DNA of 64,000 nucleotides, from positions 1-64,000 of the forward strand of contig JAEUTZ010000004.1 of the NCBI GenBank assembly GCA_016787725.1, in the 5' to 3' direction. The DNA is from Cyclobacteriaceae bacterium (lineage in GTDB: Bacteria > Bacteroidota > Bacteroidia > Cytophagales > Cyclobacteriaceae). A model generated the notes under the pieces. It ran no database searches and had not been told where the DNA came from. It was given only the letters and a program-made list of their open reading frames with translations. Positions 951-4,082 of the stretch are shown here, one piece after another. A program made the translations under genes and the position numbers. Within the stretch, counting starts at the first letter, position 1; every line of letters begins with the position of its first letter.

Positions 951-1433
951 ATGGAGGCAAGTGAAGTTGGTAAAAAGCCATCTATCGGAGGATTTTTGTC
1001 TAAAATTCTCGGAGTTGGAGTAAAGGAGACAGTCGATTCCATTGGGAATGCGATCGACAAAATCGACAAGTCAGATGAGAAGCTTGAACTTCAACTGAAG
1101 TACAAGGAACTTCTCATGAACATGGAAGGAGCCTGTATTGATTATGAAAGCAAGCTGCTGGAAACGAAATCAAAAATTATTGAATCAGAAACGAAAGGCG
1201 AAAGCTGGTTGCAACGAAACTGGAGACCGATACTCATGTGCATCTGCATGTTTATCGTTTTCAATAACTACGTGCTCGTGCCATACTTCAACCTTCCGGT
1301 AACTACTCTTGATGATCACATCTGGACTTTGATGGACTTGGGTGTTGGAGGTTATGTAGCAGGCAGGTCTCTTGAGAAGATTAGTGAGAACCTGGGGCCA
1401 GTACTTTACAATGTGGGAAAGAAAAAACGCTGA
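951..1433 (+). CDS. Holin-like protein of the GTA/phage 3TM type
   Basis: This 160-residue protein has a charged, partly coiled N-terminal half (residues 1-85). It is followed by ESWLQRNWRPILM and a hydrophobic hairpin, then a glycine-rich segment GVGGYVAGRSLEKI near the C-terminus. The WLQRNWRP motif followed by membrane segments and GGY.xGRS is the signature I know from the holin family of gene-transfer agents and phages, which permeabilise the inner membrane for release. It lies 31 bases after the ATPase gene and is probably co-transcribed with it. A strong hairpin overlaps its stop codon. The family is a confident recognition; holin activity itself is inferred. Confidence 0.7.
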   Translation: MEASEVGKKPSIGGFLSKILGVGVKETVDSIGNAIDKIDKSDEKLELQLKYKELLMNMEGACIDYESKLLETKSKIIESETKGESWLQRNWRPILMCICMFIVFNNYVLVPYFNLPVTTLDDHIWTLMDLGVGGYVAGRSLEKISENLGPVLYNVGKKKR

Positions 1434-1453
1434 GATGATAAATCTCAGCGTTT
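1425..1453. terminator. Bidirectional terminator hairpin
   Basis: A perfect 12-base inverted repeat (AAACGCTGAGAT / ATCTCAGCGTTT) has a 5-base loop. It overlaps the stop codon of the holin-like gene and lies between two converging genes, with A-runs on one side and T-runs on the other. It would work as an intrinsic terminator in either direction. Confidence 0.75.
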
Positions 1454-1466
1454 GGAAAATTGAATC

Positions 1467-2042
1467 TTATAAACTGATGCCATTCAAATGGGTTTTGGAA
1501 TTCTTACCGTTTTCCAAAATCCGTTTGTAGTATTTATGCGCTTTAGAAATATGACCTTCCATCGACCTTTTATTTGGAAATGGTCCTGCTTCACACTCCG
1601 GACACCAGTATTCAACAACCTTCTCTTTGTCTGCCTTCAATCTTTTGTAGAACAGTTCGCTCAACTGCCACACCGCGAGGGAGTGGCAGAAGCATATTAG
1701 GAAACTGATCGTTGCTAATTTGATATTCAGCAGTGATGGCTCCTGTAGAGCAAGGAACCAATGGTCATAGTAGAAGGCATTAATAAAAAAGCTAACAACT
1801 GCATAGAACTTTCCAGTTGTTCTATAACCGTTGATAATGAAAACTAAAATTATGAATTCAATAATACTGGCTAATGCAATTCCATAAACCCAGTTCAAAA
1901 TTGAGAAACCAAAAATGGTCATATCTAAGTGTTCAAGATGCTTAAAAAGGTGACCAGCGTGAGGTACGTAAAGAATGATTAGCATAAGTGCTCCGTGAAA
2001 AACAACTTCTTTGCTTTCAAGGTATGTGACTATCTTATTCAT
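1467..2042 (-). CDS. Polytopic membrane protein with C-terminal C2H2-type zinc finger
   Basis: This 191-residue protein has about four or five hydrophobic segments over residues 10-130. A soluble tail follows with CPEC, 13 residues, then HISKAH, giving the C-x2-C-x13-H-x4-H spacing of a C2H2 zinc finger. I do not recognise a named family. It converges on the holin-like gene and lies 24 bases downstream of the integrase on the same strand, so integrase and this gene may form one transcript. The finger could tether nucleic acid or a partner protein at the membrane; that is inference. It is probably cargo of the integrated element. Confidence 0.55.
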   Translation of the reverse strand: MNKIVTYLESKEVVFHGALMLIILYVPHAGHLFKHLEHLDMTIFGFSILNWVYGIALASIIEFIILVFIINGYRTTGKFYAVVSFFINAFYYDHWFLALQEPSLLNIKLATISFLICFCHSLAVWQLSELFYKRLKADKEKVVEYWCPECEAGPFPNKRSMEGHISKAHKYYKRILENGKNSKTHLNGISL

Positions 2043-2066
2043 TGGAGTAATGGATTAAAGTTGAGA

Positions 2067-3317
2067 TTAGGATTTTTGAGCTATTGCAGGAGTTACTGAT
2101 TTTGTATTGAGCCTGTTCCGGAGATTCTTCATGTCCTCGCTCACTTTCAAATCAAGGATTCTTGCATAGTGTTGGGTAGTCTTTAGGTTTCTGTGTCCTA
2201 GCATCTTACCCACTGTTTCAATCGGTACACCATTAGAAAGTGTAACAGTAGTAGCGAAGGTGTGCCGAGCCGTGTGGAAGGTCATTTTCTTCGTGATGTC
2301 ACACGCATCTGCAATCTCTTTCAGATAGGTGTTCATCTTTTGATTGCTCAAAACAGGCAACAATCTTCCTTTGATAGCGCATTGAGGGTCATCTTTGTAG
2401 CGGTCAAGAATTTCAAGAGCTTGAGATAGCAGGGGAATTCTGGTCGCAGTGTCAGTCTTCTGTCTGCTTGTCCAAATCCATTTCTCGCCATCAATACCAG
2501 TGGTGATTTCTTCGCGTGTTAGTTTTTCAACATCAGCATAGGCTAATCCGGTATAGCAACAGAAGATGAAAATATCGCGCACCTGGTTCATGCGTGGGGC
2601 TACGAATTGTTTTGCAATAATTCGTTTGAGTTCTTCATCTACCAGAAAGGGACGTTCTACCTCCCGTTTTGTCATTTTGAATCCCAAAAACGGGTCGCGG
2701 TCAAGCCAACCGTTTTTAATGCAGATGTGGACAATCTTCTTGAAATTGGATAGGTACTTCACGGAAGTATTATGGTCACATTTACGCTGAGACTTCAGCC
2801 AAAATTCATAGTCGGCAATAAATTCATAGTTAAGCTTCTTAATATCAATGTCCTCAATCTGGAATTTCCATTTCATGTATTCCAGCGTATGCCGGTATGA
2901 GGTTTCATATCGTTCCAGTGTTAGCGGTGAGAACTCACGATTGACAAGAGCTTTCATTTGCTCATTGTGCTGTTTGAAAACTTCCATCAACATTCGTGGA
3001 CGTTCGGTAGATGTTCCGTACCATTTTGCTTTAAGATTGTCCAAGGTGATTTCCTTTCCTTCGGTCATCAACTCTCGTTGATGATCAAAAGCTTTCAACT
3101 TGAAGCCTTCAAGCATCTTGTTTATCCTTCGCGATTCCTCGTTGTTGGTTTTTAGTTTACAGTTTTGAACAGACCAGTCGGCAGGTTTTACATAAATCTT
3201 GGTGATGATGTTTATGCGCTTAAGTCCGATTCCAATTCTCATGAAAACTGGAACCAAACCATCATCCTTTGCGCGGTCTTTTCTTGCGAAAAACTTAACT
3301 GAAATTGTTTGCCTCAT
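2067..3317 (-). CDS. Tyrosine recombinase/integrase, Bacteroidetes type
   Basis: This 416-residue site-specific recombinase carries an arm-binding N-terminal domain (about 1-95), a SAM-like core-binding domain (about 105-210) and a catalytic domain (about 225-400). Visible catalytic residues are Lys287, His348 and Arg351 in HTARHTFA, His375 in MLGHRN and the nucleophile Tyr384 in HYARI. The first arginine, usual in TGLRxxE, is alanine here (TGLAYAD, 256-262), a known variation of Bacteroidetes integrases. The gene starts about 245 bases from the 3' end of tRNA-Ser, the usual arrangement for an element inserted at a tRNA 3' end. It should catalyse integration and excision of the element extending left. 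Confidence 0.9.
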   Translation of the reverse strand: MRQTISVKFFARKDRAKDDGLVPVFMRIGIGLKRINIITKIYVKPADWSVQNCKLKTNNEESRRINKMLEGFKLKAFDHQRELMTEGKEITLDNLKAKWYGTSTERPRMLMEVFKQHNEQMKALVNREFSPLTLERYETSYRHTLEYMKWKFQIEDIDIKKLNYEFIADYEFWLKSQRKCDHNTSVKYLSNFKKIVHICIKNGWLDRDPFLGFKMTKREVERPFLVDEELKRIIAKQFVAPRMNQVRDIFIFCCYTGLAYADVEKLTREEITTGIDGEKWIWTSRQKTDTATRIPLLSQALEILDRYKDDPQCAIKGRLLPVLSNQKMNTYLKEIADACDITKKMTFHTARHTFATTVTLSNGVPIETVGKMLGHRNLKTTQHYARILDLKVSEDMKNLRNRLNTKSVTPAIAQKS

Positions 3318-3508: not shown

Positions 3509-3541
3509 AAAACCTCGAAATCATTACGATTTCGAGGTTTT
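3509..3541 (-). terminator. Intrinsic terminator of the tRNA-Ser transcript
   Basis: A perfect 14-base inverted repeat, AAAACCTCGAAATC, has a 5-base loop. On the minus strand it is followed by a T-rich run and lies 21 bases past the encoded CCA of tRNA-Ser. It is therefore the natural end of the minus-strand tRNA transcript. Confidence 0.8.
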
Positions 3542-3561
3542 GATTGTGTTTGACTTTTACT

Positions 3562-3651
3562 TGGCAGAGGAGGAGGGATTCGAACCCCCGGACCGCGTGA
3601 ACGGTCTCCGGTTTTCAAGACCGGTGCAATAAACCACTCTACCACTCCTCT
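3562..3651 (-). tRNA. tRNA-Ser (anticodon TGA)
   Basis: The minus strand folds as a class II tRNA: acceptor AGAGGAG pairs with CTCCTCT, the anticodon loop is CTTGAAA (anticodon TGA), and there is a long variable arm (GACCG/CGGTC). The T-arm is GGGGGTTCGAATCCCTC, followed by discriminator G and an encoded CCA (3564-3562). All stems close. It decodes UCA and other UCN serine codons. It is preceded by a GIY-YIG nuclease gene ending two bases upstream, and by a second interrupted tRNA-Ser copy. The best upstream promoter is at 4053-4082, so it is probably released from a longer transcript by processing. Confidence 0.95.
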
Positions 3652-3653
3652 TT

Positions 3654-3896
3654 TTAAATAATACCTTTTTCTTTAAGAAATCTATAACCTTCAATTGACT
3701 TAAAGAATAATTCCCTTTTGTAAGCTTCCGATTTTGTATCGAAAGGTTCGCTGTAAACAATCTTCCAAGGCCTTCTGCCTTTTGTTGATCTTACTTTCCC
3801 AGCATTATGTCTTTTCAAACGATTATCCAGATCAATTGAATGACCGTAATAATGTGTTTTACTCGTTTCACTCTGAAGGACATAGACATAAAACAT
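3654..3896 (-). CDS. Small GIY-YIG nuclease domain protein
   Basis: From the ATG at 3896 this is an 80-residue single-domain GIY-YIG protein starting MFYVYVLQSE. The GIY equivalent is YVYVLQS (start) and the YIG equivalent is HYYGHSIDLDNRLKRHN; the helix with the conserved Arg is present and the acidic metal ligand region is KSEAYKREL. The family are Mg-dependent nucleases related to UvrC and to homing endonucleases. The frame stays open for 32 more codons upstream, but that extension is a translation of the tRNA-Ser pseudo-copy and is not homologous to the domain. The stop codon is two bases from the intact tRNA-Ser. Position between two tRNA copies suggests a mobile or homing-like gene; that is inference. 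Confidence 0.85.
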   Translation of the reverse strand: MFYVYVLQSETSKTHYYGHSIDLDNRLKRHNAGKVRSTKGRRPWKIVYSEPFDTKSEAYKRELFFKSIEGYRFLKEKGII

Positions 3897-3944
3897 CCAC
3901 AAAGCTACTAAAACCCCCGGACCGCGTGCACGGTCTCCGATTTT

Positions 3945-3966
3945 TGCCATCGGCATCCCTTTGGGG
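3945..3966. repeat. 22-base insertion in the anticodon loop of the tRNA-Ser pseudo-copy
   Basis: The element consists of two adjacent small palindromes: TGCC-ATC-GGCA and then CCC-TTT-GGGG. It matches the 22-base element at 3981-4002 at 18 of 22 positions in the same orientation. It splits the sequence equivalent to the loop CTTGAAA after CTTG. No clear target-site duplication is visible. Confidence 0.7.
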
Positions 3967-3980
3967 CAAGACCGGTGCAA

Positions 3981-4002
3981 TGCCATAGGCATCCCTTAAG
4001 GA
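3981..4002. repeat. 22-base insertion in the D-loop of the tRNA-Ser pseudo-copy
   Basis: It has the same double-palindrome design as its partner: TGCC-ATA-GGCA followed by ATCC-CTTAA-GGAT. It has the same length and orientation as the element at 3945-3966. It lies within the D-loop, so both insertions sit in unpaired tRNA loops. Confidence 0.7.
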
Positions 4003-4052
4003 TAAACCACTCTACCACTCCTCTGTGTGTGATTTTGCTTTTTTAAGGACTG

Positions 4053-4082
4053 CAAAAGTAAGCCGAAATTTGATTTCTACAA
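4053..4082 (-). promoter_or_regulatory. Promoter for the tRNA-Ser pseudo-copy/GIY-YIG/tRNA-Ser unit
   Basis: On the minus strand TTG (4082-4080) is followed by 19 bases and then TACTTTTG (4060-4053). This is an exact match to the Bacteroidota -33/-7 promoter, TTG-N19-TAnnTTTG. Initiation would fall about 20 bases before the pseudo-tRNA 5' end. No comparably good promoter was seen between it and the intact tRNA. Confidence 0.65.

Follow-up and report, generated by a model that had tools for sequence, protein, structure and literature searches.

Organization of the tRNA-Ser locus

The window analysed here is a stretch of 64,000 nucleotides from a Cyclobacteriaceae bacterium (contig JAEUTZ010000004.1). 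On its minus strand a promoter motif is followed by a damaged copy of a tRNA-Ser gene, a gene for a GIY-YIG protein of 80 residues, an intact tRNA-Ser gene and a terminator (Table 1). This order of parts had been described in a sequence-only reading of the same DNA and was recovered by inspection of the letters and with ARAGORN, Rfam and Pfam. The copy had been called 3'-truncated; it indeed breaks off in the T loop, but it is also interrupted by two inserts of 22 nt which had been missed. Alignment of its pieces with the intact tRNA-Ser gave identities of 100% for stretches of 23 and 15 nt and of 94% for one of 33 nt, and the two inserts resemble each other.

Table 1. Features of the tRNA-Ser locus, in window coordinates
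Feature	Position	Strand	Basis or remark
Predicted promoter of tRNA locus	4053..4082	-	TTG 4082-4080, 19 bases, TACTTTTG 4060-4053; letters read
373-bp insertion relative to empty sites	3652..4024	-	Global alignment with L221 and L224
Damaged tRNA-Ser copy (t1-21, t22-36, t37-69)	3912..4024	-	Breaks off in T loop
22-nt double-hairpin insert in D loop of damaged copy	3981..4002	-	Alignment to intact tRNA, letters
22-nt double-hairpin insert inside anticodon of damaged copy	3945..3966	-	Alignment to intact tRNA, letters
GIY-YIG nuclease gene, 80 codons and stop	3654..3896	-	Pfam PF01541, E 2.5e-16
Intact tRNA-Ser(TGA)	3562..3651	-	ARAGORN; Rfam match 3651-3565
Hairpin terminator of tRNA locus, then T run	3509..3541	-	Inverted repeat; letters

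The motif TTG-N19-TACTTTTG resembles the Bacteroidota promoter consensus, and since the same motif stands, by eye, directly before tRNA-Ser in relatives that do not carry the unit, it is presumably the promoter of the ancestral tRNA locus. The arms of the terminator hairpin (3509-3522 and 3528-3541) are 14 nt long and 100% complementary; a similar hairpin was seen by eye after the tRNA-Ser of the related locus L224. The genome of the window has only one full match to tRNA-Ser(TGA), so that the intact copy is presumably required. The nuclease frame is open further upstream into the damaged copy; counted from an ATG at 3992, which lies within the first insert, it has 112 codons, an extension which we treat as chance.

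The start of the contig, on the far side of the tRNA-Ser terminator, holds a tyrosine recombinase gene (2067-3317, minus strand) and a GTA_holin_3TM gene (951-1433), and the region 951-3317 is a prophage-like element adjoining the same tRNA-Ser. In L224 the DNA after tRNA-Ser is, by eye, similar to this recombinase/holin side.

Empty sites in related genomes

A tRNA-Ser search of 40 genomes of the genus found the tRNA in 38, and the best 13 loci were inspected by eye. Seven of these 13 (L218, L221, L224, L225, L226, L227 and L228) have the end of the window's upstream gene and the promoter, followed directly by tRNA-Ser. L229 starts in the same way and has a palindrome-bearing damaged copy directly before the intact tRNA, with no nuclease gene in its 3087 bp. 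Six of the seven empty-type loci (all except L226) were aligned globally to the window. L221 and L224 each gave one single gap of 373 bp, with flanks identical to the window at 240 of 297 and 120 of 141 positions (L221) and at 222 of 297 and 137 of 148 positions (L224). The difference was split over two gaps for L228 (374 bp) and over three for L218 (415 bp), and no interpretable gap was obtained in the global alignments of L225 and L227. The single clean gaps against L221 and L224 argue for a gain of the unit here (or its loss in the relatives) in which the native flanks on either side were preserved and the tRNA was duplicated. Clean empty sites come from this one locus; a second one, sought at tRNA-Arg(CCG), was not found in eight comparisons.

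The recombinase and phage-type holin genes that adjoin the tRNA-Ser of the window could point to an ordinary tRNA-targeted island, the damaged copy being the attachment-site remnant of an integrase-borne element. The insertion, however, measures 373 bp and holds a single GIY-YIG gene and no integrase, damaged copies carry hairpins, and the layout recurs at 34 anticodon labels, all of which makes such an island hardly credible.

Recurrence of the nuclease beside tRNA genes

Relatives of the nuclease were gathered by protein similarity alone, not by tRNA context. Matches were present in 37 of 58 related genomes (133 matches in sum); 67 loci from named contigs and 80 further stretches were added and the profile was rebuilt. 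From 220 hits (208 distinct) 187 domains were kept that covered more than 45 of the 75 model positions. A tRNA lies within 300 bp of the domain in 113 of these 187 rows and on the same strand in 112 of the 113, while a rough estimate of the chance that a random gene has such a neighbour is about 1% (39 tRNAs, genome of 4.2 Mb). The same-strand tRNA is downstream of the nuclease gene in 40 cases and upstream in 72. Across the nuclease gene from it, a damaged piece for the same amino acid was found in 72 of the 112 rows; such a piece was on the same side in 16, and BLAST found none in 29. The other rows have a damaged piece only (26), an intact tRNA at 300-900 bp (4) or neither (45). By phylum, a tRNA or damaged copy is present in 118 of the 133 rows taken as Bacteroidota, an assignment that for the related genomes is based on named relatives such as Roseivirga, Algoriphagus and Pedobacter and on the promoter type, and in 0 of 9 rows from Verrucomicrobiota.

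A phylum search, in which matches were counted whatever their tRNA context, gave a profile match to the nuclease in 95 of 148 sampled genomes. Its 29 best-scoring loci, the window's own left out, served as a second set: in 23 of them a tRNA lies on the same strand no more than 300 bp away, each of these also gave a damaged-copy alignment, and in 12 the insert has a stem of at least 6 bp. The genome of the window itself has four nuclease matches, all with a tRNA within 300 bp; a wider profile gave nine matches there, the tRNA context being read for four. The three other copies, with 30-49% identity to the window protein, are located at tRNA-Arg, tRNA-Pro and tRNA-Leu. Two of them, L003 (C22:226714, tRNA-Pro(TGG)) and L004 (C15:391751, tRNA-Leu(GAG)), have an in-frame stop in the nuclease and keep a tRNA remnant beyond the nuclease gene; the remnant in L004 carries a palindrome in its T loop. 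The observed unit is one case of a recurrent system.

These counts agree with the view of the sequence-only reading that the locus holds a small tRNA-associated, probably selfish unit (same-strand tRNA in 112 of 187 rows, 72 with a damaged copy; 23 of 29 in the second set), and the clean 373-bp insertion relative to two empty sites upholds its proposal that a nuclease cassette entered an ancestral promoter-tRNA-terminator locus. The same layout, for which it had suggested a search beside other tRNA-Ser genes, was found by protein similarity at 34 anticodon labels. Nucleases at unrelated places without tRNA copies would have spoken against it: the majority do have a tRNA or a copy, but 45 of 187 have neither. 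Release of the nuclease mRNA by tRNA processing, also proposed, cannot be general because the intact tRNA is upstream of the nuclease in 72 of 112 cases; it is possible in the window itself.

The same position of the tRNA weighs on an interpretation at the RNA level, in which the damaged copy would serve as a structured leader or decoy, while the protein, expressed from the same transcript as the tRNA, would process RNA or act in regulation. The shared strand in 112 of 113 neighbours and the one promoter upstream in the window would suit such a role. A conserved RNA fold of the damaged copy was nevertheless unsupported, the RNA being not unusually stable (z -0.23 in the window, -1.38 in L012), and the unit is absent at orthologous sites; we consider this interpretation very improbable.

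In the protein of the window the catalytic-type residues Y5, Y16, R26, H30 and E62 are all present, and the corresponding columns are conserved (Y5 174/176, Y16 178/180, R26 181/186, H30 185/187, E62 180/183). Comparison of the window with L012 gave pN 0.16 and pS 0.80, with synonymous sites saturated, and the nuclease is under purifying selection. A promoter of its own for the nuclease (TAnnTTTG just before the start, as in the window and L012) was rejected, as the motif is present in 5 of 187 rows and random windows have it in 108 of 3740 cases.

In-frame stops occur in 11 of the 133 matches, including two of the four copies in the window's genome, and tandem units in 14 of 168 loci, for example L012. 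The latter, together with purifying selection and the amplification of phage tRNA genes described for SegB in the part of PMC13096335 that was available, could suggest a domesticated nuclease which keeps tRNA gene dosage flexible, its breaks driving tandem tRNA duplication with damaged copies as by-products. In L012, however, the amplified unit consists of damaged copies and brings no extra working tRNAs; the unit is absent from orthologous sites of near relatives, and the in-frame stops also argue against a domesticated function, which we therefore regard as improbable. The empty sites, in-frame stops and tandem copies fit a mobile element with turnover.

Damaged tRNA copies and hairpin inserts

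The units occur in two mirror layouts, in which the nuclease gene stands in the middle, preceded by the damaged copy and followed by the intact tRNA or the other way round, and the damaged copy is often cut off on the side facing the nuclease. It was recognized in 110 rows, 94 of them with an insert of at least 8 nt, by an alignment with cheap long gaps in which some long inserts are artefacts. Taken once per locus (72 loci) and assigned approximately by coordinates, the hairpin insert is in the T arm in 25 cases (17 in the loop), in the anticodon arm in 24, in the D arm in 19 and elsewhere in 4. Many inserts are exact, with no tRNA base lost, such as those between GTTC and GATTCC; in tRNA-Val a palindrome stands in place of t31-43 in five loci, with differing stems. 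In the Ser clade the insert position is t36|t37 and in the Leu-CAA clade t65|t66. The T loop as a single target was rejected, since 31 of 97 damaged copies have the insert in this consensus region and the T loop is whole in 22.

A palindrome-bearing damaged copy and an intact tRNA were also found with no nuclease gene in the stretch (L229, L280, L293, L295). At L280 (330-830, genome G024) three tandem palindrome-bearing damaged tRNA-Arg copies with a period of 143 nt precede the intact tRNA-Arg(CCG), which lies beside tmRNA. The unit accounts for tRNA-like fragments that mislead annotation: at L024 (1751-1831) ARAGORN calls a tRNA-Ser(GCT) which we read as a palindrome-bearing damaged tRNA-Leu copy.

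A perfect stem of at least 6 bp is present in 63% and one of at least 7 bp in 41% of 117 inserts of 12-60 nt, as compared to 7.5% and 1.7% of mononucleotide-shuffled inserts. The Ser-type insert of 22 nt consists of two adjacent 4-bp hairpins with 3-nt loops. Fifteen such inserts were hand-picked from Ser loci, leaving out those of other length or build (e.g. L044, L045, L143, L332 and the anticodon insert of L326). In this selection 94.2% of cells are paired; shuffles give 79.6%, with 0 of 500 reaching the observed value, and slid controls 16-58%. Both sides have changed in 12 cells, where shuffles give 2.6 and 0 of 500 come as high; the outermost pair is broken in 6 of the 15, including the anticodon insert of the window. 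Compensatory change of this kind may stem either from selection on the hairpin or from one arm serving as template for the other. Insert similarity tracks nuclease similarity (r 0.257, 0 of 2000 permutations as high), as calculated over 2292 pairs from 72 loci, the members of each pair coming from different genomes and different amino acids.

Copies of two palindrome types number 0-7 and 0-36 per genome (58 genomes), and REP-like high-copy palindromes were rejected on these low counts. The insert type of the window gave 3 forward and 4 reverse matches in its own genome with at most 2 mismatches, against 2 and 3 for a control pattern, and both exact matches in this sequence-pattern search are in the window locus. 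A strict link of the palindromes to tRNA genes was rejected as well: the first 20 further sites had a tRNA in the stretch at 9, one of which (L290) is itself a nuclease locus, and 20 more sites (G024, G031, G018) had a tRNA at 0. In rows with no tRNA, a perfect inverted repeat of at least 10 nt spans the nuclease gene in 17 of 41 cases (0.5% in shuffles); the figure for tRNA rows is 12 of 136 (0.3% in shuffles). In two checked cases the nuclease interrupts another gene, a 23S_rRNA_IVP gene at profile position 43/44 in L081 and a tyrosine recombinase gene in L055. In the Patescibacteria loci L049 and L075 nuclease and tRNA are enclosed by direct repeats of the same palindromes.

In Patescibacteria L066, L069, L076, L084 and L092 (about 1480-1760) the nuclease gene stands between inverted repeats CCCGTTAGAGA..TCTCTAACGGG, which by eye end at the apparent start codon of the next gene; this is perhaps another gene-sparing insertion. 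In L308 (524-938, G031) a TCCCGAT..ATCGGGA-type palindrome (from 549) is inside an RNase P RNA gene (Rfam RF00010). L281 (580-685, G012) has three identical palindromes about 43 nt apart which overlap a Flavo-1 match just above the cut-off (Rfam RF01705, 596-668), and Flavo-1 may be related to palindromes of this type.

The hairpins could themselves be the primary mobile sequences and the recognition sites of the nuclease, which would bind or nick them in single-stranded or cruciform form. They would insert into loops that are exposed in tRNA genes, and also into other places, and survivors would keep a tRNA duplication. Arguments for this scheme are that inserts are the more alike the more similar their nucleases are, whichever tRNA is involved, that pairing is kept while letters change, that palindrome-bearing damaged copies exist in four loci with no nuclease gene, that related genes lie inside inverted repeats in non-tRNA rows, and that a palindrome occurs in the RNase P RNA gene of L308. 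The low copy numbers of both palindrome types and an insert type that by its sequence pattern is not dispersed in the window's genome (3/4 against 2/3 for the control) argue against it, and we hold the scheme to be possible but doubtful.

tRNA fidelity of nuclease clades

A quick tree of the 187 domains was used to map the tRNA labels of 126 rows, one per locus, eight labels being hand-corrected. The anticodon label changes 53 times on the tree, whereas 200 shuffles needed 103 changes on average and never fewer than 96; for the amino acid label these values are 43, 93 and 86. The nearest relative in another genome has the same anticodon in 80 of 126 cases (5.6 expected), the nearest in another family in 37 of 126 (5.0 expected) and the nearest in another phylum in 17 of 126 (3.8 expected, five rows having no phylum name). 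Nuclease clades thus stay with their tRNA, in part even between phyla. Some of this fidelity comes from vertical descent in the genus, and the cross-phylum cases rest on metagenome-assembled genomes (MAGs) in which misbinning could occur.

Within Balneolota and Chlorobiota MAGs, the closest relatives of the window protein (L041, L042 and L044, 64-71% identity) are also at tRNA-Ser(TGA), L041 by its damaged copy only. When the window is compared with L043 from Roseivirga, the host tRNAs differ and each damaged copy resembles the tRNA of its own host, which suggests that the host tRNA was duplicated on arrival.

Relation to known systems

Similar to homing endonucleases, the unit has an intact nuclease domain with catalytic residues (PF01541, conserved columns) and is present in some alleles and absent from orthologous ones (L221 and L224, at one locus). 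The unit differs from a group I intron with a GIY-YIG enzyme, a candidate that was rejected: an Rfam scan of the window gave only tRNA at gathering score, and no ribozyme match around the gene. The nearest solved structures, by sequence, are the small UPF0213-type GIY-YIG proteins PDB 1zg2 and 1ywl (E 3.3e-8 and 1.3e-6), which were deposited as hypothetical proteins.

Other short repeats with a cognate enzyme have been described. REP palindromes are short, reach high copy number and are paired with RAYT transposases, which belong to a different enzyme class; palindrome counts in the present family are low. The Ssn proteins of Neisseria are small GIY-YIG single-strand site-specific nucleases with a short cognate repeat, and the units described here share with them a small GIY-YIG protein and such a repeat; Ssn proteins are not known to be associated with tRNA genes.

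SegB is a free-standing GIY-YIG homing endonuclease of T-even phages that, according to the accessible part of PMC13096335, is encoded near phage tRNA genes, which represent many isotypes, cleaves inside tRNA genes at the motif RAWTSGAAC and drives tandem amplification of its locus. By our reading this motif is the reverse complement of the tRNA T-loop consensus. The window family resembles SegB in its GIY-YIG domain, its position beside tRNAs of many isotypes and its tandem units. SegB is phage-borne, and that part of the source mentions neither hairpin-interrupted tRNA copies nor tRNA fidelity across phyla; the window family is chromosomal, has such copies and partly keeps its tRNA between phyla. 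It is also distinct from the SegB sequence family, as the window protein had no match in PHROG; neither had that of L012, and matches for L067 (0.0013) and L092 (0.008) were weak. Among phage and plasmid records 21 and 6, respectively, match the nuclease, all at less than 60% identity and none a near relative, and the viral contigs of IMG/VR gave no match.

The mobile double-hairpin elements of mitochondria (PMC2800124, consulted in part) likewise consist of two adjacent hairpins, and compensatory change is seen here. Their Allomyces representatives have no reported flanking duplications in that part of the source, and many of the inserts found here remove no tRNA base. The mitochondrial elements are dispersed, with no nuclease partner named in the same excerpt, whereas the sequence-pattern search in the window's genome gave no dispersed copies of its insert type. 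Among the open-access papers searched, titles and abstract beginnings contained no report of hairpin-bearing tRNA copies beside bacterial chromosomal GIY-YIG genes, and a term search of PMC9897764 on tRNA fragments gave no occurrence of 'endonuclease'. Free-standing GIY-YIG homing enzymes near tRNAs have been described, and so have mobile double hairpins, but none of the literature covered was seen to bring the two together.

Proposed explanation

We favour, with moderate confidence, a family of small, integrase-free, homing-like mobile elements which duplicate their tRNA target and leave one copy intact, cutting and mobility being putative. The sole gene of the 373-bp unit would encode a GIY-YIG nuclease of approximately 80 residues that is linked to a single tRNA gene (tRNA-Ser in the window), and the unit would act like a free-standing homing endonuclease with a safeguard. 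Its arrival would duplicate the host's own tRNA gene: one copy would stay intact beside the nuclease gene, and the spare copy would receive a hairpin pair in one of its arms and lose its end on the side of the nuclease. The nuclease may cut its tRNA gene at clade-specific arms and the unit may spread by recombination through tRNA homology, such that only cells with an intact tRNA copy survive; the hairpin would disable, mark or protect the cut site in the spare copy.

Insertion and duplication at the window locus, hairpins and their pairing, recurrence, tRNA fidelity and turnover are documented above. In favour of homing-like elements we count the clean 373-bp insertion, the same-strand tRNAs (112 of 187, and 23 of 29 in the second set), clade fidelity, palindromic inserts that track the nuclease, compensatory changes, the conserved active site and the precedent of SegB. 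Against them stand the 45 of 187 rows with neither tRNA nor damaged copy and the 29 of 112 in which BLAST found no damaged piece, the clean empty sites at one locus with none from the tRNA-Arg(CCG) comparisons, a clade fidelity that is partly vertical and open to MAG misbinning, the palindromes away from nuclease genes and tRNAs, and the lack of a near relative on phages, plasmids or viral contigs.

We see an even chance that these units form an undescribed class of minimal mobile element, composed of an approximately 80-residue GIY-YIG nuclease and a cognate double hairpin. Insertion would be gene-sparing and would occur in many tRNA kinds, with the tRNA duplicated, one copy kept intact and the hairpin placed at a nuclease-specific position in the other, hence life in single-copy tRNA genes and the crossing of phyla with the target kept. 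There is a fair chance that the system deserves its own class. If the explanation is true, the units would show how a very small element can settle in single-copy tRNA genes without an integrase and leave the host alive. The nuclease would then be a candidate enzyme for mobile hairpins, the mechanism of which is left open in the accessible part of PMC2800124, and the family would amount to a naturally occurring set of small nucleases, every one linked to a particular tRNA gene.
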